Shown: piece by piece, positions 10,347-32,877 of the stretch | Layout: every line of letters starts with the position of its first letter | Position numbering within the stretch: position 1 is the first letter of the stretch | Assembly: GCA_013368325.1 (NCBI GenBank) | Contig: JAACJK010000006.1 | Coordinates: 186,001 to 250,000, forward strand | Reading direction: 5' to 3' | Length of the DNA: 64,000 nucleotides | Source: Ephemerocybe angulata | Taxonomy: Eukaryota; Basidiomycota; Agaricomycetes; Agaricales; Psathyrellaceae | Notes under the pieces: model-generated | What the model was told of the DNA's origin: nothing | The model's database searches: none | What the model saw: the letters and a program-made list of their open reading frames with translations, nothing else | Program-made: the position numbers and the translations under genes

Positions 10347-10367
10347 CTAACAACCTGTGGGCAGATG

Positions 10368-10405
10368 GCCGATGCTTCGCACGGCAGTTATTCCGAGGCA
10401 TTTTG
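10368..10405 (-). repeat. 3'-terminal hairpin and internal copy of the asymmetric terminal inverted repeat
   Basis: Positions 10390-10405 (plus strand ATTCCGAGGCATTTTG) are the inverted match of the right terminus at 32,864-32,879. Positions 10368-10385 (GCCGATGCTTCGCACGGC) can fold into a 7-bp stem with one bulged base and a 3-nt loop, 14-15 nt from the element end. This is where rolling-circle elements carry the termination hairpin. Confidence 0.75.
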
Positions 10406-10776
10406 CCTCCATTGGCTGCAGACGGCCTGCGATATGGCTGATCAGGCCTTTTTCAAACTCAATGCAGCAAGATCACTTCGACCCGTCGGACGCCGTAGTA
10501 GCGGCGATGGCATCATACTGCTCGACCTAATTAGGCGATCAATGGGCGGCATCACGCAACCGGTGGCCCCAAGGGAAGTGGATGTGTTATTACCATAGCG
10601 CAAGTCATCCACTGGTGGTAGTCGTTGGCTGTCGTGCTACCCGTCGCTGTCCTACCTTAGCTTCCGGACTGTCTAGATCATGTAGTACCGACGCGGTCAC
10701 CACATTATGCTTATTGGACACCTGTTCACACGCGTGACGTTAACACTATCGATATAGCTTATATTCGTTTCGAAAC

Positions 10777-11351
10777 CTAGCGAATGATGTAAGCGCCTCC
10801 CGACAACCCATGCCCTCCCTTATCTGCCTGCGAGTTACGTTAGTATAACGGCGAAGTGAATTCAGGGCGAAAAAGTGTGCATTACCATTTGCTCAAGCTC
10901 CCTCGCTCCATCCTCCCATCGCAGGCCCCTGAGGTGAGTAGCAACGCGGTAGACCGTCATGATGATCAACTCGAAGGCTACATTTGAATTGTGCAGATAC
11001 ATCATCGACATGAAATGTCGGCTGACCACCTTCGCGTCGTTCGTGTCCATGAATCCGTGTCCCAGTCCAGCCTCCGCTGCGGAAATGGCAAGTGTTTGAG
11101 CCCAGCGGCGGATGACCACGCCTTCGTACTCCCGGTTGGTTGCGTTCCAGACGTCCCTGGAATGCAGGTATTGGTCTCTTAACGCGTTGTACACCCGTAC
11201 GGTGTGCTCCTTGAGATCTTCTGGGTACATGGCCCGGTAGTAGTCGTCCGGTGTCTGTTCGTACTTCGTTGTTCCGTCAGTCCAGCGAGACGCAGTACAC
11301 GGGTTTGAAGAGGCTTACCATTACGCTGCGGCTGGATGACTGAGGGTACAT
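10777..11351 (-). CDS. cargo gene 1: small hypothetical protein, 153 aa
   Basis: Three exons: 11351..11319 (33 nt), 11263..10886, 10827..10777. Intron 1 acceptor could instead be at 11254 (3 codons shorter). Intron 2 has a consensus branch site (TACTAAC) and ends CGCAG. Phases agree and give MYPQSSSRSVM...DDYYRAMYPEDLKEHTVRVYNALRDQ... ending GGAYIIR. The middle looks alpha-helical (RWAQTLAISAAEAGLG; HNSNVAFELIIMTVYRVATHLRG). No known domain is recognised. A TATA-like ATAAAAGG lies about 70 nt before the ATG. Same strand as, and just downstream of, cargo gene 2. Confidence 0.65.
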
Positions 11352-11417
11352 AGGGAAAGGACAGTGGGGATGGGAGGCGAAGCGACGGAAGTTGGGGTAG
11401 AGACGCAGGCTGTCTGG

Positions 11418-11425
11418 CCTTTTAT
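11418..11425 (-). promoter_or_regulatory. TATA-like box of cargo gene 1
   Basis: ATAAAAGG on the minus strand, about 70 nt upstream of the ATG at 11,351, the same spacing as the other TATA boxes in the element. Confidence 0.5.
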
Positions 11426-11794
11426 GTCAGAGGATGCCGTGTCAAGTGACCGCACGTTAACCCGAACAAATCGCCGTTTGGCCTTATAGAATTCTGATTC
11501 CAGGTCCATGATGTGTACAGGGACCGTTTGGATGGCTCCGACGCTGGTTGCAAGACCCTGTAAATTAGACTTGTCGCCGGGGGAACCCCCGTTTTATTTT
11601 CCGTGTAAACCGAGGGTCCTTTGGGACGTAACTTTAACTGAGCAGGCCACTTCAGGAACTATAGCAAGGTCATCCGGTACGGTGAGGATAAAATACAGGG
11701 AGTGGGTATATACAGTAGGATTGATACGACGTAAAATATGCATTAGATGGTAGTAGAACGAGCTGAACGGCGAATGAAAGAGAGGAGCGGGATA

Positions 11795-12590
11795 TCAGAG
11801 CGCGATGAGGGCCTCACGGCGTCTGACCGTGGAGTGTGTAGTGGCGATGGGATGGGCACCGGCGCCATCGTCGTCGTCTTCGCTTTCATCCTCCGAGCAG
11901 CGTTGCTCATGTCCGGCACTCCCTTCGCTGCCTGAGGGCCAATCTTCGTCGTCGCTCTGGTCAAGAGAAGGTCCTGGTCCGGTCACATCGTCACTTTCTC
12001 TGTACAGTATACCAAACTCTCGTTCTGCGTAGGAGGGTCAGAATAGTTAGTAAGACGACTCGACAATAGAGGTGCTCGCGCACTACGGCGTACCTATACT
12101 GAGGACGCGTGCGTAGTATGCGTCCTCCATCTCGCGCTCCCCCAGAGCATACATACGCGCTCGCACCTCCCCCACCATGTCCCTAGACTCCTTCCAACGA
12201 CGTAGTGCCAGGCAGTACTTTATCTCTGCCGCTTCGCTCTCCTCCTGGACCCTATGAATATATCCGTCGCTGCTTCCTTCGAGGATATGTGCGGTGACCA
12301 ATGCCCGGGACATCTTGGCCAGTAGGTCCAGCTCCGCCCGGCGCTCGTTCTCACTGGCCTCCTCTTGACGGTCGGCAGCCTTCGCCAATATACTGGTATT
12401 TCGGCGGTGAAGTACAAGGACAAGGGAGCCTATGTGCACTATCGGTAGTTGCTCGAGGTATTCCAGTGGATTCTGTGAACATAGGTGGGCATCGTGAGCA
12501 TGCGCGCGAACATATGCAATGCGCGATTGCACGACTCACAGCTGGGGGGAACCGGCGGCTGGGGCGGGAGGGCGAGTAGCTGCGCGACAT
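11795..12590 (-). CDS. cargo gene 2: helical hypothetical protein with acidic tail, 219 aa
   Basis: Three exons: 12590..12540 (17 codons, Ser/Arg/Pro-rich start MSRSYSPSRPSRRFPPA), 12472..12094, 12024..11795; introns of 67 and 69 nt with GTGAGT/CACAG and GTACGC/CGCAG ends; phases agree. The central part NPLEYLEQLPIVHIGSLVLVL is followed by long charged helices, likely coiled coil, then EFGILYRESDD and a Ser/Asp/Glu-rich C-terminus. No known domain. The start is supported by a TATA box (ATATAAG) 65-70 nt upstream; the other open frame through this first exon has no ATG. Confidence 0.68.
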
Positions 12591-12654
12591 TGTGGACAGA
12601 CGGGGGAGAGAATTTGTGGAGGGACTGACCGTTTGGGGAGGGTCCTGTCACAGT

Positions 12655-12661
12655 CTTATAT
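12655..12661 (-). promoter_or_regulatory. TATA box of cargo gene 2
   Basis: ATATAAG on the minus strand, 65-71 nt upstream of the ATG at 12,590. The interval 12,662-13,433 between the divergent cargo genes 2 and 3 is AT-rich near 12,715-12,765 and has no gene. Confidence 0.6.
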
Positions 12662-13433
12662 GGGGCCGTGGGTGGACCAAACAAACATCATTTCGGGTGC
12701 CGGTGTACGGGCATATATAATTTAATAGTCTTCAAATATACATTATGTTGTAGATATTTTGTTACAGACATCAGATAGCGAGGGACGTGAATGCTACCCT
12801 TTTCTACGGCGGCTCAGAACGTGAGGCCCTAAGACGATACCCTCCGTACATGATGGCCGAGAGGGGTGCGCAACCCTGCGTAGGAGGCGAAATACAACGC
12901 TAATCCTACGTCTGCTCTGTCGTCTGTAGCGCGAAGGCCTTTAGGATTGCAAGGAGCACTTAATTCACCGTCCACATATCTCATCCGTCTCGAAAGGTCC
13001 ATGGACACGCAGGCATCTCCACGGACCCCCATCAGATCGGGTTAGCGGGCACTAGACGGGGTTATACAGGTCTGATGTCTTACTCCCGCGTCTCCGACGT
13101 TGTCGAATAGACTTTGGACGGTATGATTATGACATTGGAATCAGAGGTATGGTTCAGGGTGACTGGGTCCCAAACGACTGGCCTGATGTCAGGTCGCAAA
13201 GTTCGCGTAGCCTAAACACAAGTTCCACTGCGCCGAAACACCGAGCTTAATGGCGTCCACCGGTTGAATACTCAGTTGGTATTCGTCTGCCTCTACGTTC
13301 CGGTGCGACGAAGGAGAGTGAAATGGCAAGCCCAAGGAGAGGAGAGCACCACCTGAAGTATGCCAGTGCGTGGGGAATCATTGATAATTGATATCAGATC
13401 ATTATTGATCCTCAGAAACATTGTTGGGAACTT

Positions 13434-13442
13434 TATATAAGG
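13434..13442 (+). promoter_or_regulatory. TATA box of cargo gene 3
   Basis: TATATAAGG, 71 nt upstream of the ATG at 13,505. It is the same nonamer as at 33,418-33,410 in front of the PD-(D/E)XK gene. Confidence 0.65.
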
Positions 13443-13504
13443 AAGGTATGCCGGCGGGCCCTCTCCTGACATAACCACATCGATCCACCCCGTTTCGAGG
13501 CGCT

Positions 13505-14155
13505 ATGGTATCACCTCAGCACAAGGTATACGACAAGGATGTCGAGCTATGCGTAGCAGCGGCCAGATCTGCTTCCAGGGTGAGCCGTGGTATCTCAGCG
13601 TCAGGCGTGCCGCCTAACCCTGAAGTTCCCTTTCTTAGGACGAGCGATGGCCCATGGTGAAGTGTGCATTCTTCGGGTCCAGGTGCACGAAGCCCTTCAT
13701 TGTTCCAGCGGGCGTGCAATGTGCCTCCATAGACAGTGGGAGGGGGATGGACGTAATGTTCCGGTCATACGTGAATGCCCTGACCCCGCGGTCTTCATTG
13801 GTGTTCAACCTCGACCACTACATGATCGAGGTGAATCGGTACCCAACCCATAGCGTCGTCGAAGGTCCATGGCGTTTCACTGTCTTTACGTCCAGCAACG
13901 TAAGTCCACCTACCGTCACCCGACTAGTGGCTGAACTGATGCCCTATTGCGAAGCCCCACGACGCCGAGAACCAGCTCATCCAGAAGCTGCACGGCGCGG
14001 CAAACCTCCACATCCTCGGGTCTGTCCTTGTCGTGAAGAGCAACCACATGGATGTGGTGCATCCGGTCTGCGAAGCCGACATGGTGCTCATTGAGACCAT
14101 GCTTGTAGAGTGGGTTTATTCGCTTATCGTACATCAGATCTCGTTCTGTCACTGA
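13505..14155 (+). CDS. cargo gene 3: hypothetical protein, 178 aa (module gene A, left copy)
   Basis: Three exons: 13505-13579, 13639-13899, 13955-14155; all junctions phase 0. Contains WPMVKCAFFGSRC, a Pro-Ala-Gly-Val loop, WRFTVFTSSN and, after intron 2, AENQLIQKLHGAAN.HILGSVLVVKSN. The C-terminal segment (N.L...G.VLVVK) is shared with cargo gene 6 at 17,161-17,928 (NQLYSL...WGNVLVVKAD), so the two are diverged paralogues. It resembles a hypothetical-protein family found in many copies in mushroom genomes, recalled without a search; function unknown. It lies head-to-tail with cargo gene 4. Confidence 0.68.
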
Positions 14156-14416
14156 TATTATCCCAGGACCCTCAGTACGCGATACCGACAGATCATGTTC
14201 ATGTCTGCGTCCCTGGCCGCGGAGCTCGCCTCCAATTTTTGAAGCGCGTGGTACTGCCGGCTTTGGGGGGCCTGTGCTCTTAGCGCGACGGCAAATATTC
14301 CTATAAATTCGAGTTTCCGAGCATCGTTGTACCCCCAACATTTTACTAGCCATAATAATCTCTCTACCTCACACTCGTTTACTCTCTCTACTACCTCACA
14401 CTCGTTTACTCTATCT

Positions 14417-15663
14417 ATGAACTCCTTGCTCTCTCCCTTCAATTCGCCTGTTGCGTCCGATACGACGTCGACTCCTCCCTCCTCTCCCATATCCACTCCA
14501 CCCGCCCTTCTGCCCGCATTGGTCACCCCTCGCACACCTAAGAATAGGCGCAGCCCGCTAGTCAAGACGCCCACCAGGTCCTCAGCTCGCTTGCCCATAA
14601 AGAAGACGCGATATCCTAGTTTCCCTCCTCAAGACTATCTTACCCCCCTTTTCCGCCTCAAACTCGCTAACAGGGCCGGGTCCTTTCGCTTCACCGACGC
14701 CGAGGTAGTATTCCGCACTCCGGAGCTCGCCGCTATCATTCTGTCCTACTGCGACTGGCACACTATCCAGAACGTGTCTCGCACTTCCTTCTATGGGCGA
14801 AGCGTCGCGCAGAGGGCCACGAAGGAGGCGATTCGGGCCGTCCTACTCCAGTTCGTGGTGTACGATGACTTCGGGAGCTTCATGACGATGTTAGAGGAGA
14901 CGGGGGCTGGAATTGGGGGCTCTGTTGCCCGTCGTATATTGGCGACCAACTCAGCGATGATGCAGGATGCGATTGAGTATCGAGACGACCGCTATCTGCG
15001 CTCGGGCGACCTCAACATTATCGTGCCTCGCGGGCAATCGAAAGCGGTAATCCAGTGGTTCACGGATCGGCAATACGACCATTGGACGAAGACGAAGCCC
15101 GCACGCGCCTATCAGTCTTCCGTACTAAGCTTCAGCAGCGCAACCAGGAGCGCCAGAGTCGGCATGAAGGTGAGTTTCGATATTCATAGCCCATAGTCCC
15201 AGACTAATCGAAGGTACAGACGTCCAGACTCACCATTAGTGAGAGCGTCGGGAACATCATGCAAGTTACGCTCGCATCTACCTTGACCTGCCAAACCAAC
15301 CTTATCACATCGACTCGCGTGTATGCAGCCTACCCTACGCTGATCAGCGATCGCAGCGCGCTACGAACGGACATCTCCAATGCTGTCGCACCCCGCCGCA
15401 TCAGACCACCGTACGTGCTCGAAATCTCCAACGCGCGGTGGACTGGTCCATGCGGAATCCATTGTCCGTCCCTCATCCGCAAGACCGTCGGCGACAAGGG
15501 AATCGCATCATTCTACTGGAACCCTAACTTCCTGATCCCCGCCTCCCGGTACAAAGACACCGACTCCCTCCTCGCCCAATCTGTTTTGCAGTGGCGCTTC
15601 TCGAAGCGGTGTGTCAATCCCAAGTGCGGGCGCTTCTCGGCCGTCAAGGGCCGTATCTTCTAG
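14417..15663 (+). CDS. cargo gene 4: hypothetical protein, 398 aa (module gene B, left copy)
   Basis: Two exons: 14417-15169 and 15220-15663 (acceptor 15214 also possible, adding two residues). The start is the ATG of MNSLLSPFNSP; a TATA-like CTATAAATTC lies about 115 nt upstream, followed by a 22-nt direct repeat. N-terminal 80 residues are Pro/Ser/Thr-rich and basic, probably disordered. Then comes a folded part with TPELAAIILSYCDW (F-box-like helix pattern), ETGAGIGGSVARRIL, DLNIIVPRG and, after the intron, ISNARWTGPCGIHCPSLIRK and a Cys-rich end KRCVNPKCGRF. The GGS-I/V-A/V and DLNI/V-VP motifs plus the terminal Cys motif recur in cargo gene 5, its paralogue. Confidence 0.7.
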
Positions 15664-16147: not shown

Positions 16148-17123
16148 TTACGGATTGAGATACACACTGCGTGCCTCGAAGAGCTGCATGTTGGGGCACA
16201 ACGGATTGTGGCAACGACTACTCACCCTCCAAGTCAACGGTTCTGACGAGCAAAACGCTTCACCTGCGGCAGGCATCCGTCTCCAGTAGGAATCCTGCGG
16301 CGCCTGGGGATGTGAATAAGACCACGCGTAGATGGCCGCCCCTCCGTCTTTTACGCTCTTCCTCCATGTCGTCGGGCAGTATATCCCACATGGCTTTGTC
16401 CAGTGCGAGTTGGTATCAAACACGGTGAAAGTCTGTGCTCCGGTACGTTCGCCTCCGGCCTGGCCTTCGAGTATCAGACTCTCGTTCGCGAAGGTCGTTC
16501 GCGGATAGAAGACGATCAGCGATCCAGGGATTATCGCGTTCATCTGCGCGGTGAACGGCGAACCGAGAACAACGCTGAGAGATTTTGTGTTGCTTGCATA
16601 GAGCATGATGCATCGAGTCTAAGGTTGAGCGGGTCGGTATCGACAACGCGTAGGTAAAAAGTGCGCGTACTTCACCATTAACCACCTGCTCAAACTTCTC
16701 GACGAGGTCCACGTAGGGGGATGTCTTCTCGGACGGGGGCAACGTTATGGAGTCGTAACCCAGGCTGTGGAAGAACGAGCGCATAGGATCTTCCAGGCAC
16801 AGGCCTGTTACGACGTCCAGGTTGGCCGGCTGACGGGTTGGGTGGATGGACGAGTTGACGTGCAGCACTGATCGCACCACAGATCCTATGACCGCCCCCT
16901 CGCATTCGTACAGGCGATCGAAGAACTCTTCGCAGCGGGGAAGAGGCACGAAGTCCGCGAGCGCGTCAAAGACGCGACGCCGCAACTCCTCCTGGATTGC
17001 ATGTCGACCGTCTTCGCACAGCTGAGGCGCTTGGTGAAGCCGACTGGTGGGCAAATGCGATACGACTTCGAGGCGCACATCCGCCGGCAAAGTCGGAGAA
17101 GGGGTAGGTAGAACTGAGGACAT
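16148..17123 (-). CDS. cargo gene 5: hypothetical protein, 307 aa (module gene B, right copy)
   Basis: Two exons: 17123..16671 and 16618..16148; intron 52 nt (GTACGC...CTTAG), phase 0. N-terminus LPADVRLEVVSHLP is F-box-like; AVIGSVVRSVLHVNSS, NLDVVTG and, after the intron, SVVLGSPFTAQMNAI, WTKPCGIYCPTTWRK and a final Cys motif SRCHNPLCPN. Order, motifs and the intron position match cargo gene 4, so they are paralogues in opposite orientation. The start is only 38 nt after the stop of cargo gene 6 on the same strand, with no visible TATA box, so 5' sequence may overlap the upstream transcript. Confidence 0.7.
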
Positions 17124-17160
17124 ATTTCTTGGCGATATGGAAAAGACAAGGTGCGGTACG

Positions 17161-17928
17161 CTACGCCCAACTGGATCCCCACCCGCTTCCGACGCTATCA
17201 GGACTGACTAATGGATTGATGCCTCGTGGTACATCGTATAACCGCTTATCCTCGAAGAAGCTATGCTAGCAGTTAGCGAAGCACCATACCGTGAACACGC
17301 ATGAGGCTTACCTATAGACCAACGTCTCCACGAAGTAGAGGTCCTCCACTACGACATCGCAGACGATGCCGTCCTTGTCGGCCTTCACGACGAGAACGTT
17401 GCCCCATACGCTTCGTATGCCGCTTCCTGCCCTAGCCTTGAATAAAGAGTAGAGTTGATTCAGCGGAAGGTCGGTCGAACCCCGCCCCTGTGCAGAAGAA
17501 CGTCAGTACGAATTGCCGGACAAGGGAATCAGAGCGTGAAATTGGTCGCACCCTTTTCTTCGCTCTGAATATTGACCAAGTATAACGCTGAGGGCGGGGA
17601 GCGCAGGATGGATAATGCGTAATACAATGTCCGCCTCCCTCGAGGTTTCTCAGCGTGGGGGGGATAGGGACTGCGGTCGGCTGACATAAATACCGTTCGA
17701 CGTAGAGGTCAATCGGTCGAGTCCCCTCCTCGAATCCAGGATGGACAGCGACCGAAACTATCTGGACGCTCGTACTGTGAGCGCCTATGACGCTGGCCTT
17801 CACAGTCCTGAACAGCCCATGCTATTGAAGGGGAATCAGACTCCTGTTTCCATCGCGCGAGCTTCACGCACCTGTTGGGCCACGTCGAGGCCGTTGGAAA
17901 TCGACCTAATCTCGTCTTCGCTGTGCAT
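17161..17928 (-). CDS. cargo gene 6: hypothetical protein, 200 aa (module gene A, right copy)
   Basis: Four exons: 17928..17872, 17821..17552, 17487..17312, 17260..17161; phases 0, 0, 2 agree. Starts MHSEDEIRSISNGLDVAQQ, then a beta-rich part (VQIVSVAVHPGF, DLYVERYLCQ, PRPQRYTWSIFR), then NQLYSLFKARAGSGIRS.WGNVLVVKADKDG, which matches the C-terminal segment of cargo gene 3. The last exon (FFEDKRLYDVPRGINPL...) is not found in the left copy. Function unknown. Confidence 0.66.
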
Positions 17929-18451: not shown

Positions 18452-18457
18452 TGCAAT

Positions 18458-21400
18458 CTACATCTGGGTGTACACTGCCATGGACGCGACCTTGCGGTCA
18501 AATACGGAGAGCGTGTTCTTATGAAGACCACTGGACAACGAATACTCGTAAGTAACCAATCCGTTCATCTGCATATCGTCATAGCGGTACACGCGCAAGG
18601 ACTCGTCCACGATACGAGCCGCGAAGTGATCGGCTCCCCAGTACACAACGCCCGCCAACCTATAGCGCGCGTTACTCAGCTCTATGCTCGAATCGATTAC
18701 CAGACGCTTTCTAAGGGTATCGAACGGTAGGAAGGGCAACTGTACGCACATCAACTGCGGGTACTCATTCTCGAGCAAGAGGTCGCCGTCACAATCACTG
18801 CACGAGCCTGCGACGGCTTCTAACGACCTGACGTATGTCGACACCTGTACGACCCGAGAGAGGCTAGATCTCATATCGACATAGGGGCCAATACCCTCAA
18901 AGACACCAGTGCCAGGGGTTCTTGCATGGCAGCCCATGCATAATCGGTATGTGAGGTTTGAAGGGCTGCCGAGCTGCGAACCCCCAATGATCTGCACCAG
19001 GGAATAGAGGTCGGTCCCCGCCTGGCCCCTCGGGAAGCTATCACCTTCCGCAAGCCAGAGCCTTTCACGTATGCCGTATCTGCACTCGTTTAACGCGGCA
19101 GCTCCCCGGTCGATCGCGGCGAACATCTCGAACATGTATTCCAGATACCAGCTCGCAGGTGCGAGCTGGGAAATGAACGTCGTACTACGCGTGTACCACA
19201 CGTATCTCAATATTGTAAGGAAGGAATCATGGGCACAGCTCCAGTCAACTGAATCCCACTCCCAGCTGTCCAACCACTTCTCTCTGAACTCCTCTTGACG
19301 AGACTCGCGCGGTATTTCAGGGTCTACCCTGATTTTTTTCTTTGCACTCTCCACCAGTGCAATATGATCAGCCTTACGTTTTCTGTTACGCTTCGAGGCT
19401 TCGCTCTCCCCGGCTGACCCCTCCTTCCTCTTCCAGGTCTTGTACGCTACGACTGTCGACGCTCTCAACTTTTGCACCACTTCCGCCGGGATCTCTCGGT
19501 CGTAACGACGCTTCGTGATTTCGTCTAAAGTGTCAATCATACGGAACTCCTGTCTGAGATGGCCAGATATACCGCCTGTGAGCTTTTCCTCTTTGAAATC
19601 TCTGAGGATCGCAGTTGCTGACGCCTTAGTACCCCTCGACAGGGCAGTGTACATTGCCTGATGGTTCCGCGAACGCGTAAGATCGACCACGTTGACCTCC
19701 CTGGTCTTACCCTGGGAGGCATAATCAGTCATCGCGAAGTTGAGGATGACGGGTACCTGTTGCCGGGAAACGCTGATCTTCGCGTCGTTGGGCAGGACGG
19801 CTGTAATCGCAGTGGAGATCTTCATTAGCGGCACGACATTCTCTTCGAGATAGGGTAATTTGATGGGGTCTTTGGGATTGAGGAGCTCGACGAAGAGTAC
19901 GTCCAATGCGAACTTTCCAGGGTGACCTGAGATCTCACGAGAGGTCCAGCCTCTGACCTTAGCCTCCTGACCCTTCGTAATGCACAACTCAGTTGCGTCG
20001 TTATTCCGAATCATGACAGGCATCCCTACGCAAAGAGGCAGACATGCTGGTACATGCTCGCTAGTATACGGCGGCGACGTCCAGAGAGCTTCGCGAACGG
20101 TGTCTGTCAATTTTATCTTATGTTGGGCGGGAGGTGGCGGGGCCTTCTTGCGACGACCTCTCTGACCGTTGGCCGTGCTCTGCTTGTCGATGCAGTAGAA
20201 CATGAAGAGGGGCTGTTTGCTTTCGTGTGCAAAGCGTACGGCGTTCATCTCGTTTATTTGGTCCTTGTGGGTGTTCCAAGCAGTGATGATGGATACGTTA
20301 CGCCATAGGGGATCCCCAAGGCTTATTGACGGATTGTTCGCAGGTATCCTCGAACGTAGGAATTCAAGATCAGCTTCGGTGCATTCCCTGTACCGCATAT
20401 TGACAAGACACGTTCTGAGTGCGTCTTCGTCTGCATCGTCCGACTCCGTTTGCCGCATGTTCTGACGCAGAACAACAACCGTCACAAACATGTTCCACAG
20501 AAGGAGTCCAAGGGTATTATCTTGGTCGCCCTGGACCTGGCGGGGCAACTGGACCTTTGAGACTTCTCCGCTGTAGAGCGAAAGCCCTTCGCTGGTGGTA
20601 GTTGAGCGAAGTCGCCCGCTACGATGATGTTCACTCCGCCGAAGGGGAGGTCATGCAACGTTGTGATGTCCTTCAACCTGGCATCGATCAAATACAAGTC
20701 TTGGCATGACACCATGGATATCTCGTCCATGAAGACGTAGTCGACCCCTCTCATTCGCAGGCGCGCTTCATCTAGCGCTTTCCCTCCCCTGGGGGCGTAC
20801 GCGCGCCTATCCCCCGTAGCGACCCCAAGATAAGAGTGGTAAGTCGACCCACGCACCACCGACGCCGCCGCACCGGTGGGTGCAGTTACCACCATCCGGT
20901 TCCCTTGATTCCGCACGTCGAACCATAAACGCAACGCGTTTATAACCTGCGTCTTTCCTGTGCCCCCCATGCCACCTATGTACATGAGGAGCTGGTCGGC
21001 ACGGGGTGACACAGAATGGTTGGCGACTATCCTGAAGGCACGCGTCTGCTCCTCATTCAGTGAGTACAGCTGCACAGTTTCATTCAGTTGAGCGCTAACA
21101 TCGGCGTCGTTCAGGTTGAAGTCAGCGTGGAAGTACGACCCTGGGACACACGGGCGTCATTAATCACCTGCACGTCGATGTCCATGTCATCTTCCAATGC
21201 GTACTGATTTGGCACAGCAGTAGCCAGGCGCGCATTCATGACTTCCGCTCTCCGATGCGACGACGTCCTTCCATTTGCTTGGAGCAAATGATCGCTCCGG
21301 GGCAAACGCCCTACCAGCCATTGAGGCGGTAGACGACGCCCCGTCTACATGCCAACCAGCTGAATGGAGGACGACCTCCACTTCCTTCATCTGATCCACC

Positions 21401-24400
21401 TTCTTCTGGGACCATGTACCGATCTCCTCATCCTTTGGATCGACATCCATGTCGAAGTGGTCATCCTCGTTGGGTAACTCCTCGCCCTCGTCGTCAGACC
21501 CCGCGTCTTCGTCACCATTATACTGTGCGGCTACCTGGTTCCGCAATTGTGCATGATAGTCGTCCCGGCTATCGTAGCACTCGTGCCGGATCATAAAGTT
21601 CTGAATGATCTTCAAGTGCCGAGGTGCAAACGAATGCCTATCGAAGGCGCTCTCCCAGTCCTCCGCTGAAGACCTCAGATCCGTGGCGACCCTCCACGGT
21701 GAGAACAAGGTGAGCATAGTGCAACAGTAATAGTTTCTGTCGTCGCTGTCTGACCTAGGGAGATGAGGGCCGATGATGTTAGGCACGACGAGCTGCATCC
21801 GCCCACATCATATAGAACGCGGTGAGTATCTCTTAGTGGGTGCCCTTCCAAGTACTTAAGTAATTTAAGGGAGGGTTTCTTGATACCTACAACGTACTTC
21901 CGCACACTACACTGGATCCAGTCGTAAAGGCATACCGTGTCCAATTCAGCCGGGCGCATGACATAGTCATCCACGTTCGATTTACTCAGTATTCTTCCAT
22001 GTGATCTGGACACCGTCACCGTGTCCGTGTCCGCCGAGGGAGTGGTATCCCCACTGTCCACGTCACTGTCGGTACCATCCCCGTCGTCGGTTGGAGACTC
22101 GAACGACGAGGACAAATGCGGACCCTCGCAATCCATCGGGTCTCCACTTGTCTCGAACGTTTGGGTAATAGCGTCCCATTTTTCGAGGACATAAGAGACG
22201 TAAGGCCTCCAGTAGAGTGTCACAAAGTCATGGCTAGAATAGTGATCAGGATGACCCAGCAAGTACATTGCTGCCATGGGTCCCCCAATCTCTATCTTCG
22301 AGGTTAGTGAGTTGGCCATCTTGAGTATGAGCTTGCGGGCGGCATCGTTCTCATCCTTGCTCTCATCCTTGATATCCGGGTTTCTCTCGAACACGTCATA
22401 TATAGACGAGAAGATCTGGTACGTCTTGAGGCCGAACTTACTGATGTAATCCGCGATGTATCCAGCCGACGCCTTAACGGCTGTCCCCGACGAGAGGGAA
22501 GTGCAGTCTGTGTTACATCCAAAGAGGTAGACCATCAACTCGTTCACTGTATTAATCCACGACTCGTTCTTCTTTAGATTAATATGACCGTCAGTGTCGA
22601 TAACAGTGCTCTTGAACAACTGCCTTGGAAACCTCCCAGTGCAGACATGGTCCTTATTCAGGCAACCTTTGCCAAATACATGCTGGGTGCGGACGCCGTT
22701 CGTTATGACATCCCGCTTGTAATAACATGTATGGACATTAGAGCGGAAGAGAATGTTATCTACGGTGTCCTTGTAGTGACCAGTCCACTCAGATAGTGCA
22801 AAGCACCCGTCGCACGTACAATCGCACGATGGGGCGTCTGCATGTTGTGACCTAGCATCCGGAGGTGGGCGGGGCAGAGCCTGCGTGGGGTCATGTACCG
22901 GGGTCTCAGATTTAACGTCCGTTTCATTGGGGAGTCCGTCTGTTTGCTGCATTTTATCGGGACGCGCTGGGTCATTGGGCGATTTAGAGTCCTTAGTGCG
23001 GAAGCGTGCCTTCATGTCGTCCATGGTGCCCGTCATGAAATCCCCTGTCTGACAGCCTTCTAGATAGGCTATTAACTCTTTCACGAAATCTGAGTCTTTG
23101 GCCATTATCCGGTCTCGGACCTGCTGAGGGGACAACGCGCAAATTATCCAAATAAGCATGTGCAGATGCAAAGTCATCCGACCCTGCTGCTCCACGGTGC
23201 CATAGTACGCAGCAGTGTGGCCGAACGCTCCCGCTCGCCCTCCGGGGTCAGCCCACCGCAGTAGGTGCTTGATGAGAAGGAGAACCATGAAGTTAAAGAA
23301 CCTCGCACCTGCAACGGGGTTGTTAGATACTAGACGAGCTCTCTCCTTGTATTCTCGGATCTCCGGACTAAATGAGGTCTTTTTGTCGGCCCAATAAATA
23401 CATATAGGATGTTTGTTATCCGCGGGGGACAACGTGATGAACCACGACGGTGCGCCCCTGTACGCTATGAGGGACCATATCTCACTCCTCATGTTCTTTT
23501 TACCAGCCAGTGACCCATAGACTGAGCTGCCGACATGGTCGATCTGATCCATGAGAGCGAAACAACTCTTTTCTTCTTCGGTCTCAGGTTTTACGGTCTC
23601 TCCCTCTTGCATTCGGACGGCTATCTCCTTCGCCACAGCTGGGTTGATGTTATGTATCCTCGCGGCGACCGAGGTGAAGTTGGCTCGTTTCATGACGATC
23701 ATGCTACCGGACCGTGCTCGTTTGATCTGCTCGTCGTTGAAAGCCACAATGACGAATCGCGAGTCGGTCTGGAACCGCTTGTCATGGTACATCAGCAACC
23801 AGGTTTTCTGCGTAGACTCAGCTACTAAGCCCATCAACCTAGGATTCCCTAACCCACCGGCACCATAGGGAAATAACCAAGGGTAGAGCTGAGGGTAGAG
23901 CTGAGGGTTGTGGTACTTGGACTCTGGTGCGTCAGCCTGCCCCACAGCAAGAGCGCTCCCACCAGTACTGAGATGATGAACTGCTGCTGCCTTGCGGGCT
24001 GCTGTGGACATTGTCTCCAGATGACTTCCGATTAATCCGCTGACGACGAAGGGACATTTGCCGCCCTCGTCGGATTCGACAGGCTCCTCTACAGCATCGG
24101 TTTCGTGCATGCTCGTTGCGGCAACGTTTACACTCGCTTCCGCGGCCTCTGGACGATGCACCCACCTCACGATCGGTCCACTCACAGGATACGAGTTGAG
24201 GGTGATGTGGTCAATCTGCAGATCAGTATAGTCAACGTGATTTAGTTTTAACCACTCGAGTGCACGACCTACGGCGCTCCGACGAACGAGCATGGGAGTC
24301 CGTTCAAGGTCGTCTTCCGTCGGAGGATTAATACCCGTGAAGATAAACGCCATTACCTCATTCATCTCTGACTGTGGGGGTGGCAAGCTGTGGTAGACTT

Positions 24401-25961
24401 TCAGGGTGGGCAGAGCAAATGATATAGCGTTAGCGGTCATCTTGGAGTGAGAATACCCTATGGTACCGACGCGTACTACACATCTGTTCGTTCGGGCTCT
24501 GGCAATCAAGCACTGCTCTGCATAAGATAAGTCCGACAGAACCGACGGAACCTCCCCCACCCATAAACCATTAGCGAGCGCGTTGACCGGTCTTCGACCC
24601 TGGGCTAGACAGGAGGCGCACTTGGCGCAAACGGTGTCGACGGACTTGTCTATGACAGGTCCTGCATCGTATGTTATGGGTTCGTCGGGAGAGAGCCGCT
24701 CCTGTCGCGCGACGCCTGGTTCCACCAGAGGGTCCAGTGGACAGTCGAGAGATTCGATTGGCTTCAGTTCTGTTAGAAGGGTCAGTTGCCCACACACGGC
24801 GCAACCGGCTTCTTCAAAGCATGAAGGGCGAATATCATCGCAGAACTCTCGTATTATGGTGATCTTCTCTAAATCCGACAAAGGTGGCGGCGGGTACGGT
24901 TTGATATTAGTGTCTTCTCCGGGTTCCAAGATGACAGTCGGCGGCACCTCCGCAGTAGTGGGCGCTGGCTGCTTGCGTTCTGTCCGTACGGGATGAAAGG
25001 TCGCCCTGTAGCGGGGGCACGTATCTGTACAAGCGTGATCACCGAGAGCTAGAAGGGTATCAGCCTTCGGCGTTCGCGCAAGGGGTTTCAGTCCATGTAA
25101 CGTCGCAATCAAGCTGACCGCCGTTTTACCGGCCTTCTTCGCAATTCTCATCCAAGGTACAGCATAACACACGAGAGCGGTCCCATCCCCAACATTATCA
25201 CACCTGTCCAGTGAATCTCCAGCCGGTTCCAACTTCGTCAGGCGTGCACCAAGCGCGTATGCACCTCGACAGTCCGGTGCGATGGTCCCAAACATTTCTA
25301 TCTCCTCCAACGAGAATGGTTTCACGTTCTTCGTGGCATCGTCCATGTACTCCTGTCGTGGAGTCAACACCGATCGTCTGCGGGCCGCTGCGTTCTTGGG
25401 GGTGAACACGGCGCGATGAGGCTCGCAGTCGACGCAGACATGCGCTCGGAGCTGCGTTTCCACGTCCTGCCTTGGGCTGCCGCGAGGGACTTTAATACCG
25501 TGGACCGTCGAAATAGATTTCAACTCTGTGTAGTTGAAATGCGGCACTAGGGCCTCGAGAGCGACCATCAAGGAGAAAGAGTCGGGATTCTCAGCCAGAA
25601 TAAGGTCCTGGTTGTGTAGCGGTGTGTAGCTGACAAGGTCATAGTAAGCGTCTGAGGGCATCCGGTTCTGGGGGTCGTCAAACACCATGTATGGCGCAAG
25701 CTCAGCCCAGGTAAACTTCCTTTCAACATGGGCCCCACCCCCGACGAGAGGGGGTCGCAGAAGATCACAGGTATCAGGTAACGGGAACGCGATGGTTCGA
25801 TTCGTGGTAGAGTGCATGACAAGACGAGTCACAAATCGTAGTAGGGAGACAAGGGGCACAACGGAGCCAGGCTCGCAATGGACTATGCCAGCAAGGAAAT
25901 GGGTGGCATAGGCGTTGATCGCTAACATGACCAAACATGCCCAATTGGGCAGCGACGACAT
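18458..25961 (-). CDS. RepHel: HUH rolling-circle replicase + PIF1 helicase + USP-like peptidase, frames disrupted
   Basis: Rolling-circle transposase, read in pieces 25961..~21795, ~21798..21187, ~21240..21110, ~21130..20482 and ~20590..18458. N-terminal part: Cys-rich segments (CAVCGQ; CAKCASC) and NGLWVG. HUH motif HLHMLIW near residue 930 and Tyr motif GYIADYISKFG near 1165 (nicking and joining). PIF1 part: Walker A GMGGTGKT near 20,960, VFMDEISM, AGDFAQLPP, late motifs ASQGKTREVNVVDL and YTALSRG. After about 19.3 kb comes a separate domain: DWSCAHDSFLTIL (possible Cys box), CMGC and CSDC pairs (zinc ribbon), YRLAGVVYWGADHFAARIV (His box), as in ubiquitin-specific-peptidase-like folds. 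Clear frame breaks occur near 21,795 and 20,590; two more between 21,130 and 21,260 could be indels or unusual introns. Read as coded, it would not give one protein. Confidence 0.8.
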
Positions 25962-26202: not shown

Positions 26203-26560
26203 TGGGGAAGGATGTAAGTACAAGCGGGTATACAACACATAACGTGCGGCGGCTTGAGTAGAAAGGAACGATGTCATGGCAAATTATGGACGGGACGGTG
26301 GATGTGGGTTTGCCGTGGATACCACTGTCCTATGCTGGAGGGGTGCCCAGCAACATAACCCAGTGGATGTTGAAGCTGACGGACCAGAACTTGGTCCTGG
26401 AATAATAAACCGTGATGGTGTGAGCTATGATGGCGAAGGAGTTGGTCGGAATTTCCTGCGTCCACCGAGGTAACGAATCCAGACGGTCAAGGTCGCGGGG
26501 AAGGTTCAAGGTGAAATCGCGACAGTCGTATACGGGGACTAAGGAACATATATAGTCAGG

Positions 26561-29500
26561 TCACGTAACACGGGGGTATCGCAGATTGGACGCACTTTCG
26601 TCATCTATCCCAAGGGTAAACGGATCCTTGGACGGTGCTCTGGCGGAGCTCGAGGACGAAGCGGTCGCGGGGCTGGGCTTAGACGGAGAATACTTTTTCG
26701 ACGAAGACGCGGATTCATTATCTGATCGGCCATGCGTCAAGAAGGTATCGATGGGAGCGTGTAGGCTACTCACCTCCAAAGACGGAGCGCGTGGTAAACT
26801 GCATCTCCTCTCGCCCGACCTGGGAGGAGAGCTCCTCTTTCGAAAACGCTGCACAGACGAAACCCACCATGCGCTCGAACTCCTGGGAATGAAACACTCC
26901 GTTCACCCTCTTCTGTTTGATACCAGTGGGCGAGGGCGCGAGGATATGCGACTCCTTTACCTGCACAGGTGCCAGACAGATCGCTACCTTCCGATCTCCA
27001 GTGTAGAGGTGGAGAACAGGGCTCGGACCCGCAAGTTCGCGAACGAGAACGTCGAGGGGCGAAATACGTGCTATGTTGATGAAGTGCCTGTGAGACTTGA
27101 AATCGATGGCGTGGATGGCAGAGCTGCAACGATAGGGTTACAGGGGGGCTACGGATAGGACAAAACACTTACTCGTAATCGAGTTCGGGACAATCCTCTT
27201 CCCAATTCGAGAACAACATGTAACCGTCGCCTCGAATGTTCGTCCACAGCTTGAAGATGCCCCTACTAGGAACGTATACGTTAGATAATGAGACGGGTGC
27301 AGAAGAAACAATCCAACTCACGGAAGGGGAGGGAGATTCTTATATAATTCCGCGAGCGCCGGGTCCTGCAAGTCGGTATCCGTGACTTGACACTCGTCCG
27401 GAAGCGACCTGAGCTTGTGAAAGTAAGCGTCACCGAGAAAGGTACCTTTCCTTGGGGTGGCTGGAGTGCTGCGCTTGATGACGGACTTGAAAGAGCGCTT
27501 GGGATTCTTGGGCGCAACGGGCGGTACCTTGGGCGCTGTAGAGGATTCCGTGGAGGGGGCGGGGGCGGGGCTAGCACCGGAGGGCGTAGCCTCCAGCGAG
27601 GCGTCCGTGCCGAGGACGGTAGATGTTTCGACGGACCGACTGGCTGCTGGGGCGGGGGCCGACTTGGACGTGCTGGCGGTCAAAGGGGTAGATGTCCTAT
27701 TACCACGCGGGACAGGGGTGGACGTCAAAGGCGCAGTGGTACCCTTCTTCTTCGAGGTGGAGGCAGGGGCGTAGTGCGCGGATGACTTCGGTGACGCGGA
27801 GGCAGGAGCGTTGTCGTCGTGCACCTCTGACGGGACGGGAGCCTTGCCTTTGGACGACGATTTATGGGGCGCGACCGCAGGGGTTGGGGCGACTAAGGGA
27901 GCCGACGCGGACTTGGACTTTCGCGGGTTTGGCTTGGTGGAGGATGCGGCAGGCGTGGAGGGGGGCATAGCGACATCCAACGACGGTTGGTCTTCATGCT
28001 GAGCAGGCGTCGTCATTGCTTTGGATGGCGATCTGACACGAGCAGGTGTGGGCGACGCAGTCGTGACTGCAACAGACCGGGATTGAGTTCCGCGAGGAGG
28101 GGGACGTTCAGCGCCGTCGTTGTGGCTCGAGGTACTGGGACGGGTGGGAGGGCGCGTGCGTGCAGGTGGGGCCTTGGCGATGGAAGGTTGAATAGCAGAG
28201 GGGGCGAGGACAGCTGGGGATGGGACCTTGACGTGGGGCTGGGTAACAGACTTCGAAGACGGCGCGGTGCGCCTCACCTTCCTCGAAGGCGTCGGGGACG
28301 GAGCGACGGGTTCACCTTCGTCCTCGTCGTCAGCAGGGGGGCGTACGACCGGGGCGGGTTCCGCAACATGGGGTTCCCTGGTGCAATGGTCAGCGAGAAC
28401 GCGGAGGACGGTATTAGGAGGTCTTACTGGGGAATGTCATCGACGTCTTCGATGAAGTGCTCGTCGCCGCCCACTTCCTCACCCGGCTCCTCTGAGAGGG
28501 CGCCGGCCCCATCGTCCTCAGCCATGGAGTCTTCGCCCTCCTCAGCTGCGTCGTCTCTAAAATAACGACATTAGCAGGAAGCAGTGACACAGAAAGGTTG
28601 GGATACCGACATGAAGGGATCTTCCAGATCGTATTCGTCGACATCTTCCTCCAGGGGAGCGGACGGATGGAGCGCTGCGGACGCTTCGCCGTCGTCTGAC
28701 CCGTCGACGGAACCGTTTACTCCATCTTCATCTACCTCAGCGGATTCTGACATCTCGTAGTCGGCGATTGGTTCGTCGACACTCGCTCCGTCTTCGACCA
28801 CGTCCATGTCCTGGTTGACGTCGCCCTCCAACGCCATATGGGGGGGTGCGCTAAAGTTATTTCCATGAGCTTTCGTACGTGTATATTAACATCACCAACA
28901 CATACCTTGAATCGTCAACGGTCGCACACCGCGGACGTTTAGCGCTGCGAGATAAGTAAGCACTACGCGATTCAAGGGAGATGACATGCACATACTTGGG
29001 CTGATCGTCGTCGCTTTCGCCGGAGGAAGGGCCGTCCGACAGCACGGCGGTGTTCTTTGCTCGGCGTCGCTTCACTGCGGTATTGACGGAGGAGTTGATG
29101 GACCTGTTGGAACGAGCGGTCAGGGCTTGAGGCATAAGAGGATGACAGGTATGCGCACTCAGCGACGGGGACAGGGGCAGGAGCACTGCTCTTTGCGCTG
29201 GAGGCACGGGTCCTGATGATGGAGGGAGCTGAGGGCTTGACACGGTTCCTAGGCGCCCGGTTGTGGTACATCGAGTCGTCGGCGTCCATGCCTACCCCGC
29301 TAATACGCAGCACCGTTTGTAAGCAAGGCGAAAGGAGGACGAGGGGATACGCACGCATCGTCCACTGAATCGTCAGCGTCTACGACGTCGCTAGCTGCGT
29401 CGTCGTCGACTTCAACTTCGACAGTGCCTCCACCTGGCTTGAACTTGGTGACGCTAACCGGGAACAACAGTGAGACGTTATCATATTCCATTCGGCTAGG

Positions 29501-29815
29501 TCTACTTACAATCCCTTGGAAGAGGAGCTAGAGGTACCGATTAGACGTGTTCGTACTGTAAAGCAATGGGGACCCGTACCTTTTGGTAGGCGAAACGGTC
29601 GCCTTGACCTTGGGGGCAGCACCACGTTTCGCTTGGGGAGCCTGCCGACCCTTACCTTTGCCAGATGTCTTCTTGGAGGGCTGCGTCAGAGGAGGTTCGG
29701 CAGGTGGCGGGGTGGCATCTGGCACGTCGGTCAAGGGCGAAGATGCGCGGGGGGCAGGGGAGGGGGACCTGGACGCTACTTCTGCGTACGTAGCCTTATT
29801 ATGAAGTTGGGTCAT
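26561..29815 (-). CDS. cargo gene 8: large Pro/Ser/Ala-rich acidic protein, 12 exons, 889 aa
   Basis: Exons: 29815..29580, 29527..29510 (18 nt), 29453..29355, 29299..29159, 29103..28996, 28944..28906 (39 nt), 28850..28611, 28556..28428, 28377..27322, 27265..27173, 27123..26774, 26721..26561; total length divisible by 3 and every phase agrees. Starts MTQLHNKATYAEVASRSPSP. Basic clusters KRRRAKN and AKRPR (possible bipartite nuclear signal) are followed by strongly acidic exons 7-8, a long disordered Pro/Ser/Ala stretch in exon 9, then a folded C-terminal part RGIFKLWTNIRGDGYMLFSNW (exon 10) and HAIDFKSHRHFINIARIS (exon 11), ending in a Ser-rich tail. Intron 7 uses donor GTCGGT, chosen because only it keeps frame. 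Function unknown; predicted nuclear. Confidence 0.72.
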
Positions 29816-30411: not shown

Positions 30412-30418
30412 TATAAGA
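30412..30418 (+). promoter_or_regulatory. TATA box of cargo gene 9
   Basis: TATAAGA, about 67 nt upstream of the ATG at 30,479. The 29,816-30,411 interval is the divergent promoter region of cargo genes 8 and 9 and has no gene. Confidence 0.6.
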
Positions 30419-30478
30419 CGAGAATTTCGCCCCGTCCGGAAAACCAGCCGATCGAAACACACCCTCATCAAAGCATCC

Positions 30479-32105
30479 ATGAACTGCGAATACGACGCCC
30501 TGAAAGCCAGTGAGTTAACCATCAGTCCCTGCACGACACGCAATACTGAATGTCGTTACAGAGGAGGTGCTATCTGCGATCCGTCTGGATGACTATAGGG
30601 CGTCGAAGGGGGTGGAAGACGCGGCGATCGGGGGTTTGGAGCGAGTAAAGGTACGTGCAATACCCATCCGGCGTTGGGACGGGACTGAGCGCGACTGAAC
30701 AGCTGGACGGAGTTCGCGTGGTCGACTTACAATATCCACCATCTACTCGACTCCTTGAGGGTGACGAAGATTCGGAGGTGGTCTTCAAGATACAGGGCGC
30801 CATATGCGGAAAGGATCTCCCCCCTGTTATCAGCCTTCCGTACGCAATATCCTGATTCTCTGACGAAATGCCAAGTACTGAAAACGGTACAGATACGGTA
30901 CTACGTCTCCCAGCAGAATTCGCAATCTCAGGCAACACGTGAAGATAACAGGCTTCGGTTCACAGGAATTCGAAGGTTACGTCGACAAGCTCCATGACAT
31001 CCACGAAAAGTTCAGCAACCACGTCGTGGACCGTACGGTCGTCCCCTTCGATTTCCTTCCATACGAAGGTTACGCGGCACTGGACTCGCACGCAAGGTAC
31101 TTTACGGACCGGCAGCTTGTACCATACGAAAGGAGTCATCGTTTCCTTCCTGGCGTCGACCCACATCGAGTTCTGCGAAACGTCCAGCCCGACGACTTCA
31201 TTCACGGACCGGACAACGTAGTCGAGTACTGTGCGAGGACCGTCGGCGCGAACGGTGGCATAAAGTAAGCAGCGTCTACTATATCGAGAACTCGGGCACC
31301 CCTGCTGACGAACTTACCATTAGGTACTCTCCTTGCGAGCCAAGTATATTCAAGGTGGGCGACCTGGTGGAGGTTGCGTTCTCCTGCGTCGGGATACCCG
31401 TCAAAGGCCAGAGGATGCGCTTACTTCTGCAACTCCGCGGTGTGACGCTCCTTGACAATCTCGTTCGAAAGGTACGGTACCGGGCAGTTTAATCGAGGCG
31501 TTGCTGATGGTACATCTGTATATTAACAGGAGTCGGAACGACGGGATAGGCTGACCATCGCGACGGCCGTCATACACCGAACCCCGAAACGCAAGACGCT
31601 CTATCTCTCCCATTACGAACACATAGCTCCCTCTGCGAGCGTTGTGAAGCGCCAGAGGACGGAGGACGACGACCTTCAGGCGAGACTGTTCCAATCGGAG
31701 CCGCGCGGCGAGGCGTCCCTTGTAGAGGAGGGAGAGATCACCGACAAAGCTGGAGCGGGGCAAATCGACGTGGCGACTGGGGCTGATGGGGAGGCTGCTT
31801 TGGCAGACGTTATGGAAGGAGCGGTTCGGGACACCTCCGCTGGACTTCCGGACATGGAGCAGCTTGTGGAAGCCCCAGCTGAGGGCGGCGTCGATACCCT
31901 GGACGCGACGCACCTTGGGGACGGCGATGGACTCGAGGACAACGGGGAAGACGGGATGACGGAGTTCGGAGACGTCGAGGACGGCTATGACGACTTGGCG
32001 GAAGGAGAGGGCGTTGAAGTATTTGGGGAGGGCGCCGCAAGGGAGGACGCGGTTGGCCGTGTTCACGCCATCGAAGATGGTGTCGAGGCGATGAACGTTG
32101 ACTGA
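30479..32105 (+). CDS. cargo gene 9: hypothetical protein with acidic C-terminus, 450 aa
   Basis: Six exons: 30479-30509, 30562-30650, 30703-30839, 30893-31264, 31324-31471, 31530-32105; phases 1, 0, 2, 2, 0 agree. N-terminus MNCEYDALKAKEVLSAIRLDDYRASKG; middle YVDKLHDIHEKFSNH and SRHARYF.D.QLVPYERSHRFLPGVD; then IFKVGDLVEVAFSCVGIPVKGQRMRLLLQLRGVTLLDN, a beta-rich segment with the feel of a BAH-type module, HYEHIAPSASVVKRQR and a very acidic tail ending EAMNVD. It resembles a repeated mushroom hypothetical-protein family; no catalytic motif is seen. Divergent from cargo gene 8. Confidence 0.7.
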
Positions 32106-32389
32106 GGTAACGGACGTTACACTCCTTTTATTTCTGTATTTCCCATAACGTGTTTTCAACGTACGATTGCGATCGTTCCTCACAGTCTTTCACATTCCAT
32201 CTTTTCCATCTTTACATATATACTGCACACTACGTGCCATATACCTCGTTATACTCACTACCATTTAGTGTTGCCCACAATCCTTGATATCTACTCTATC
32301 TAGCTTCCTATCTGTGCACATTACCACACTCCTTTGCATATACCCATACTGATGTTGCTACATGATACTACAATACACACTTACCAGGT

Positions 32390-32845
32390 TCACGCCGGAC
32401 GGAGACGCAAGAGAACCGGAAGTGCAGCGAGGACAAAGGACGGGCACAGGGGAGAGGTGACGAGGGCTGAATGGGAGGTGCGATAACGTTGGTTTGGGAT
32501 CTGTGATAAGGTTGGTTTGACAGGCAACAGCGCCCCAGACAATGACGAAGTAAGAGGACTATGAATTGAGGAGGGACTGTGGTAGCGATGGAACATACTG
32601 GGAAAGGTCCGGCACAGGCGAGAGGCGGGCAGTATGGCAGATGTGATACGGTTGGTATGGGATATGTGATAAGGTTGGTTTGGCAGCCTAATGCGCCTCG
32701 GACATTGAGGAATTAAGACGACTACGATCTGAGGAGGAAGTGGATATGGCGATTTGCGGCAGGATGCGGCAGACGGAAAATGCCGGCTTGGCATTGATGG
32801 ATTGATGCACAGGGAGAGCTCACGGGCTTGGCGCGACGAAATGCA
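32390..32845 (-). other. open frame inside the element that could splice to the interrupted host gene
   Basis: A 151-codon minus-strand frame following an acceptor ACTCGCAG at 32,846. It is in phase 0 with the donor ATGGAT|GTAAG of exon 2 of the PD-(D/E)XK gene (exon ends at 32,926; intron 80 nt, with a TTTTGAC branch-like site). Translation would be CISSRQARELSLC..., without domain signals. It may be exon trapping by the element end, or chance. Confidence 0.35.
32436..32756. repeat. imperfect tandem duplication, about 168-bp period, near the right end of the element
   Basis: Two diverged copies (about 32436-32592 and 32604-32756) share GGCACAGG.GAGAGG, a motif TGTGATAAGGTTGGTTTG, and AGGA.T.TGA.GAGG blocks. 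It is a subterminal repeat, a common place for transposase-binding or replication-initiation sequence; the role is inference. Confidence 0.7.
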
Positions 32846-32863
32846 CTGCGAGTGTAACCGAGT

Positions 32864-32877
32864 CAAAATGCCTCGGA
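32864..32877 (-). repeat. terminal copy of the asymmetric inverted repeat (element 5' end)
   Basis: On the RepHel strand the element starts TCCGAGGCATTTTG here, immediately after the host base T. The inverted partner is at 10,390-10,405. Confidence 0.75.

Follow-up and report, generated by a model that had tools for sequence, protein, structure and literature searches.

The question raised by this locus is whether some 22.5 kb of DNA from the basidiomycete Ephemerocybe angulata form a single mobile element, and whether the genes inside are part of it or passengers. The window analysed is the whole stretch of 64,000 nucleotides at positions 186001-250000 of contig JAACJK010000006.1 (assembly GCA_013368325.1), here called C11; positions are those of the window unless a contig is named, and searches outside it covered a genome of 58.7 Mb in 232 contigs. 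We conclude with considerable confidence that 10353-32878, the element E1, is a complete giant Helitron2 that carries its transposase gene RepHel and five other genes (A, B, C, D and F) as a unit, and would likely move by rolling-circle copying, driven by RepHel, of a long single strand that the product of F is predicted to coat. The argument is carried by what was observed here: its ends, an empty site, a copy almost identical to it, diverged but collinear relatives, purifying selection on the extra genes and a fixed F-D-RepHel order.

The limits of the element were fixed by comparison of two features:

10353-32878, minus strand: E1, very probably a complete giant Helitron2; delimited by the empty site, by a second copy (E3) stopping at the same bases and by the same ends elsewhere.
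34581-37359, no strand assigned: empty site, in which both flanks are duplicated without the element, with the junction at 36870-36872; found by self-comparison of the window and joined-flank alignment.

In the self-comparison, 6777-7555 and 8838-10353 on the left of E1 matched 34581-36871 and 32880-33366 on the right matched 36876-37359, at 93.5-95.7% identity, and between these matches the empty duplicate held no counterpart of 10354-32879. Once joined, the flanks of E1 align through the junction of the empty copy, where CTAACAATCCG has its single occurrence, at 36865; the sole difference near the junction, 2 nt to its right, is CCGCCG in the empty copy where the joined flanks have CCG. At the junction itself one A is ambiguous, and E1 may be read as 10353-32877 or 10354-32878. 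An earlier note on this DNA had taken 34.58-37.36 kb for a duplicate of the flanks without the insert and had used this empty site to place the ends to within 2 nt; both statements were borne out, the boundaries now being precise to 1 nt, though the duplicate is also without the 1.28 kb of 7555-8838. The joined-flank alignment likewise agrees with its claim that insertion caused no target duplication, which the empty site establishes for E1 alone. RepHel and the Helitron as a whole are oriented on the minus strand, with the 5' end at 32877/8 and the 3' end at 10353/4. The 1.28 kb at 7555-8838, present in the filled flank copy and without counterpart in the empty duplicate (35363/35366), represent a separate insertion or deletion beside E1.

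Three structures at the termini identify the kind of element:

32858-32878, minus strand: 5'-terminal hairpin TTCCGAGGCATTTTGACTCGG, which opens with the 15-nt 5' asymmetric terminal inverted repeat (ATIR); recognised by folding and terminus comparison.
10391-10405, minus strand: 3' ATIR, 15 nt complementary to the 5' ATIR and 38 nt from the 3' end; 0 of 2000 shuffles reached 15 nt.
10368-10385, minus strand: 3' subterminal hairpin GCCGTGC-GAA-GCATCGGC, with one bulged base, between the 3' ATIR and the 3' end; similar in eight elements.

This is the Helitron2 layout described by Bao and Jurka in 2013, a 5' hairpin with an ATIR and a 3' ATIR before the 3' hairpin (PMC3627910). After the hairpin the 3' end of E1 reads CCATCTGCCCACAGG(T). 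Eight elements were compared, namely E1 to E5 and three short copies, and in all eight the longest exact ATIR stretch is 13-18 nt long and lies 38-44 nt from the 3' end, a length reached in 0 of 2000 shuffles for each element. It begins 0-1 nt from the 5' end in seven of the eight, the longest exact match of E4 starting 6 nt in. The 5' ATIR is thus found within the 5' hairpin (folded for E1) and 0-2 bp from the 5' end, as in Helitron2; the 3' ATIR is upstream of the 3' hairpin, its 38-44 nt being slightly beyond the 20-30 given for Helitron2 (PMC3627910) and about the 20-40 of FoHeli (PMC5148889). Canonical Helitron1 ends (5'-TC ... CTRR-3') were not found in E1, whose 3' end is CCCACAGG(T) and whose 5' end is T/TCC. 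For the Helitron2-like element proposed earlier, Helitron2-like ends are confirmed, with Helitron2 termini in eight of eight elements. The empty site assigns a single A/T at the junction to the target. Because a target A/T is present at all 18 left and 19 right ends inspected, insertion next to T is likely the rule.

The earlier note had proposed a search for the same ends joined to other sequence, and had reasoned that homologous insertions ending at different points would speak against one mobile unit. Within this genome the ends proved to be the same bases: the left 300 bp of E1 have at least 22 matches (E1 itself included), 22 of 22 beginning at base 10353, and the right 300 bp at least 22, two of them in an internal repeat and 20 terminal, of which 19 end at base 32877 and one (C94) stops 7 nt short; both lists are lower bounds. 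At the boundary, 18 of 18 left ends whose flanks were inspected show ACCTGTGGG with differing sequence outside, and 19 of 19 right ends show CCTCGGA followed by A, two of them (C41 and C39) having one flank in common. Just inside the Helitron 5' end lies a direct repeat, 32435-32574 and 32603-32737 (78%), which E3 has too.

The second copy, E3, stands at an unrelated site, with its left part on C42 (to the contig end) and its right part on C153 (from the contig start). Its pieces are 99.4-99.9% identical to E1 (39 mismatches summed over pieces overlapping by 3.8 kb), it stops at the same bases as E1, and its flanks have no match to the window. Since C42 and C153 overlap (0 mismatches, 29 gap openings), the assembly breaks inside the repeat. 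A third copy, E2, is contiguous on one contig (C11:281466-304462, 22,997 bp) and collinear with E1 along the whole element, with ~70-78% identity in the longer alignable blocks and 38-55% in the spacers of the global alignment. Left parts of a further subfamily, E5, occur at 11 places, where 5.5-6.6 kb aligned to one of them with 0 substitutions and 0-3 gap openings; the 300-bp flanks of these places and of another relative, E4, have no mutual similarity. C199 and C226 have ~80 bp in common at their ends, within the repeat, which gives an inferred full E5 of ~24.7 kb (12.1 kb from the left end to the end of C199 and 12.7 kb to the right end on C226). Three short copies of 2.4-2.6 kb (C155:191288-193913, C126:389290-391915 and C207:479547-481946) keep the ends of the element and are likely its non-autonomous partners; the one examined, on C155, holds none of the element's genes.

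Given that the flanks are themselves duplicated and that E3 and E5 lie at contig breaks, the 22.5 kb might be thought a duplicated chromosome block or an effect of assembly. We give this almost no credence: homology ends at the same base in 22/22 left and 19/20 right matches listed, with unrelated sequence outside, E2 is contiguous on one contig, and the ends have Helitron2 structure. A subtelomeric location of E5, whose ends lie mostly ~5-16 kb from contig ends, was also considered and rejected. The 20 contig-end pieces examined are without telomere array, with 0 or 1 TTAGGG/CCCTAA each, and 15 of the 20 overlap others, so that E5 ends lie near contig ends because contigs break in the repeat.

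The coding content of the giant Helitron2 is as follows:

18458-25817, minus strand: RepHel, 4 exons, 2391 aa; from Pfam families, motifs and the E1-E2 gene finder.
30479-32105, plus strand: gene F, 6 exons, nearest gene to the Helitron 5' end, for a predicted OB-fold (oligonucleotide/oligosaccharide-binding fold) single-stranded-DNA-binding protein (SSB); from the gene finder and the predicted fold.
26330-29815, minus strand: gene D, with a conserved C-terminal domain and a long low-complexity middle; conserved beside F and RepHel.
16148-17928, minus strand: gene C, a paralogue of B, in two model pieces; from E1-E2 conservation.
13505-15663, plus strand: gene B, modelled as two pieces (13505-14242 and 14417-15663) that may belong to one gene; from E1-E2 conservation.
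10777-12590, minus strand: gene A, outermost gene at the Helitron 3' end; from E1-E2 conservation and the gene finder.

Gene models were made with a two-sequence (E1-E2) gene finder written for the purpose, lower-scoring opposite or overlapping frames being set aside by judgement, and 26 frames and models were scanned with Pfam, whole gene D being left out. RepHel contains DUF6570, Helitron_like_N and PIF1 helicase, followed by a long C-terminal extension without Pfam match. Its motifs include HLH, YIADY and GGMGGTGKT, of which we take HLH to be the HUH motif and YIADY the tyrosine motif. The HUH/tyrosine Rep and PIF1-type helicase of a Helitron2 are thus combined in one protein, and the earlier statement that the element carries its own HUH/PIF1 gene was correct. 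No Pfam family of an AP-type endonuclease domain, as in Helentrons, was found in the RepHel frames, and RepHel gave no match in viral contigs and plasmids. Against PDB sequences, the N-terminal frame gave no match and the C-terminus five, with expectation values (E) of 0.27 or worse. The C-terminal extension (18458-19450), without Pfam or convincing PDB match, is 71% identical between E1 and E2; its SCAHDS...ADHFAA stretch recalls a cysteine peptidase, which is our impression and not a result.

The earlier note had counted nine other genes; conservation with the diverged copy E2 supports five (A, B, C, D and F) plus RepHel. B and C are diverged paralogues that face each other (25% identity, E 1e-17). 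The models of A, B, C and F gave Pfam matches below the curated cut-off only, and the predicted structure of B has a mean pLDDT (predicted local distance difference test) of 51, which is too low for interpretation; that B looks like a nucleotidyltransferase is, again, an impression and not a result. The extra genes, judged from E1 and E2, are under purifying selection: the ratio of nonsynonymous to synonymous substitution rates (dN/dS) comes to 0.18 in A, 0.10-0.17 in B, 0.11-0.12 in C and 0.07 in the core of F, and the corresponding ratio of proportions (pN/pS) is 0.26 for the conserved domain of D, against 0.20-0.23 for RepHel, where synonymous sites are saturated. In E2 the RepHel frame is open across residues 56-1388 of the long exon.

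The gene order was followed through the genome with 38 of 41 F rows (two second pieces and a 44-residue match, C218:504118, were dropped), 32 of 35 D rows (the others being additional pieces of loci already counted) and a search for RepHel-type genes with PF14214 (Pfam), of which all 106 hits were used and merged into 100 loci. D lies within 30 kb of 30 of the 38 F loci, in 30 of 30 cases in the same order and orientation, and a RepHel-type gene within 40 kb of 32, again with order and orientation constant (32/32); by chance ~14% of F loci would be expected near a RepHel. With the RepHel protein as query (33 of 180 candidates scored; 33 of 53 rows used, the others again being additional pieces of counted loci), 25 were within 30 kb and 24 of these consistent; in the inconsistent case, on C228, the nearest match belonged to another RepHel of that contig. 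RepHels at 41-44% identity (C98, C105, C189, C207, C218 and C220) retain both F and D. E4 and E5, which were unused in model building, retain the order of B, C, D and F, with ~47-71% identity per exon, and the order F, D, RepHel, C, B, left end was found again at C38 and C128. The earlier note had seen a danger to its reading in cargo genes syntenic in related species without RepHel and without these ends; in this genome, the 44-residue fragment aside, the extra genes travel with RepHel at 32 of 38 F loci. At five loci F and RepHel are 21-33 kb apart in the usual orientation (C11:90915-115181, C128:67760-92889, C28:520774-554679, C190:542460-570242 and C218:508599-537954), which suggests still larger elements or insertions within them.

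These data bear on two further explanations. One is an ordinary Helitron with a recently captured block of host genes, passengers without part in its movement; Helitrons are known for capture, the search for relatives of B yielded E. angulata proteins alone, and A went undetected in E4. We consider it improbable, as the genes are intact and the comparison of E1 with E2 shows purifying selection on them, as the arrangement of F and D is preserved in order and orientation even next to RepHels of 41-44% identity, and as only four of the 38 F loci used are away from both RepHel and contig ends. The gene set is old, fixed and evolving with the transposase; A, B and C are additions confined to one, nearer, branch, and capture may lie at their origin. 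The other is a nested composite, a shorter Helitron interrupted by or adjoining other elements, whose outer ends came together by chance. Its attraction is the size of E1, which, as had been claimed, is far above that typical of fungal Helitrons, the published figures reaching at most 14 kb (PMC6431247, PMC4289320 and PMC5148889), the upper size in a 2019 review (PMC6431247). Yet E2, E4 and E5 show the same gene order and comparable sizes (23.0, 25.9 and ~24.7 kb) despite wide divergence, and we regard a composite as extremely improbable.

The best clue to what the fixed genes do comes from F, whose protein has an acidic C-terminal tail ending in AMNVD. In a fold search its predicted structure matched best the SSBs of phages and of one large DNA virus, so that F, as modelled, shares the fold of the phage and viral SSBs of the T7 gp2.5, Enc34 and CP312R type and is predicted to be an OB-fold single-stranded-DNA-binding protein of that type. 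A sequence relationship was not detected when a profile of 17 F proteins was searched against PDB sequences, none matching at E up to 10. The fold matches would also suit an integrated replicon of viral or plasmid kind, working with a Helitron Rep and with F as a viral SSB; this is very unlikely in our view, because no capsid, polymerase or packaging family was found in the 26 frames and models scanned (whole gene D left out), and because ends, RepHel architecture and short copies are all of transposon type.

For the giant Helitron2 we propose the following course of movement. By analogy with known Helitrons, the HUH/tyrosine domain would nick at the 5' T/TCC end (32878), the PIF1 domain would peel the strand off, the 3' ATIR and hairpin on the 10353 side would terminate transfer, and the transferred strand would join next to a T in the target. 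Pairing of the ATIRs has been suggested as the mark of the end point by Bao and Jurka (PMC3627910). F, if its modelled fold is a guide, would coat and protect the displaced single strand of 22-26 kb, with D as its probable partner and probably a second transposition factor.

Several observations weigh against this account. There is one empty site only, itself a paralogous duplicate that differs by 3 nt next to the junction; E3 is spread over two contigs, and the size of E5 is arithmetic from overlapping contig ends. The gene models were fitted to E1-E2 conservation, so that their ratios lean low (E4, E5 and the other strain described below are independent of this), and constraint is weak in two parts of A (pN/pS 0.50 and 0.91), the middle of D (0.66) and the tail of F (0.55). 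E2 holds one in-frame stop relative to the RepHel model, the E4 matches to C and RepHel one stop each, and gene A is 32-33% identical in E5, where the match holds a stop, and went undetected in E4. The TM (template modelling) scores of F are modest and its binding of single-stranded DNA is a prediction only. The 44-residue F match at C218:504118, left out of the counts, does not fit the order; with it, D is consistent in 30/31 and RepHel in 32/33 cases. A RepHel within 40 kb is missing at six of the 38 F loci: two of them, close to contig ends, are pieces of E5 (C18:981974 and C90), and the other four are real exceptions (C18:193817, C126:508570, C133:457686 and C218:651540), one of which still has D. 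Finally, at 68 of the 100 RepHel-type loci F went undetected within 40 kb, which makes the F-bearing elements one lineage among several Helitron lineages in the genome.

Beyond the single locus, the wider proposal is a giant rolling-circle lineage in Psathyrellaceae, in which a three-gene kit of RepHel, a phage-type SSB (F) and D would have been kept while RepHel diverged to ~41% identity; its members would be autonomous single-strand replicons of 22-26 kb and more, their own SSB permitting this size, and one subfamily, E5, would have undergone a recent burst and be jumping now. Taken jointly, we hold these statements about as readily as we doubt them. The named sources of the F relatives (17 proteins) are only Ephemerocybe, Candolleomyces, Coprinopsis and Coprinellus, and relatives of B (4 proteins) were found only in E. 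angulata. Independent gene models of F and B exist in another E. angulata strain (DFP72DRAFT), where three B proteins are on contigs matching in size those with an F protein (667161, 605860 and 346635). The insertion of E2 is likely common to both strains, to judge from protein sequence, because P0018 matches the B frame of E2 at 100% and P0001 has a last exon 99.5% identical to E2. No E1-like protein above 77% was present among the matches listed for DFP72DRAFT, which suggests that E1 may be absent there. The E2-matching proteins of that strain are on a contig of comparable size (667,161 against 669,542).

Elsewhere in the window, 49838-54334 is a 1498-aa open frame with Pol_BBD (Pfam), a retrotransposon polyprotein, and there are repeats with flanking copies at 48-60 kb. 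A frame at 149-808 with a match to NPHP3_N (NACHT-like) is probably part of a host NLR-like gene.

No earlier description of a giant multigene Helitron of this kind was found in the literature searched, which covered few subscription papers and preprints, and a Helitron of 22-26 kb with a fixed, selected gene set changes the prevailing picture of these elements. It resembles Helitron2 and FoHeli in its 5' hairpin and ATIR, its 3' ATIR before the hairpin, its HUH/PIF1 RepHel and the lack of target duplication (PMC3627910, PMC5148889), but FoHeli of Fusarium oxysporum measures ~5-11 kb (PMC5148889), against 22.5-26 kb and five extra genes here. HELPO1 and HELPO2 of Pleurotus ostreatus are likewise basidiomycete Helitrons with extra genes of unknown origin; they are 1.5-13.7 kb long, with a RepHel of ~1400 aa, CTRR-type ends, insertion at AT and few genes (PMC4289320), whereas the present element has Helitron2 ends, a RepHel of 2391 aa and five fixed genes. 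An Agaricus bisporus Helitron2 with a TET/JBP dioxygenase is another accessory-gene Helitron2 in Agaricales (PMC12730594); its accessory gene is of another kind than those of the present element, and no TET/JBP match was found in the frames and models scanned here with Pfam. Many plant Helitrons carry an RPA-like protein (PMC4683698) and so resemble the present element in having a single-strand-binding protein of their own, here a predicted one, although the best fold matches of F are phage and viral SSBs rather than RPA, and the host group is unrelated; by analogy, the two perhaps answer the same need. This suggests that how large a Helitron can grow may depend on keeping its single-stranded intermediate protected, a need that some lineages may have met by an SSB of their own, apparently different from the RPA of plant Helitrons. 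With its near-identical E5 copies and its short, likely non-autonomous ones, the lineage is possibly a live system. Starships are also large fungal elements with several genes, a likeness of size class only (PMC12134995), and no recombinase family of a Starship captain was found in the frames and models scanned with Pfam, which hold the HUH RepHel instead. The earlier idea of a rolling-circle 'giant Helitron' with multigene cargo therefore stands; its analogy with the logic of Starships is a weak one, since the genes carried form a fixed set of long standing, evolve together with the transposase and count a predicted replication protein among their products. Starships combine a tyrosine-recombinase captain with variable cargo (PMC12134995), whereas the present elements combine an HUH RepHel with a fixed gene set, and are best read as a giant Helitron2 lineage with its own replication kit.

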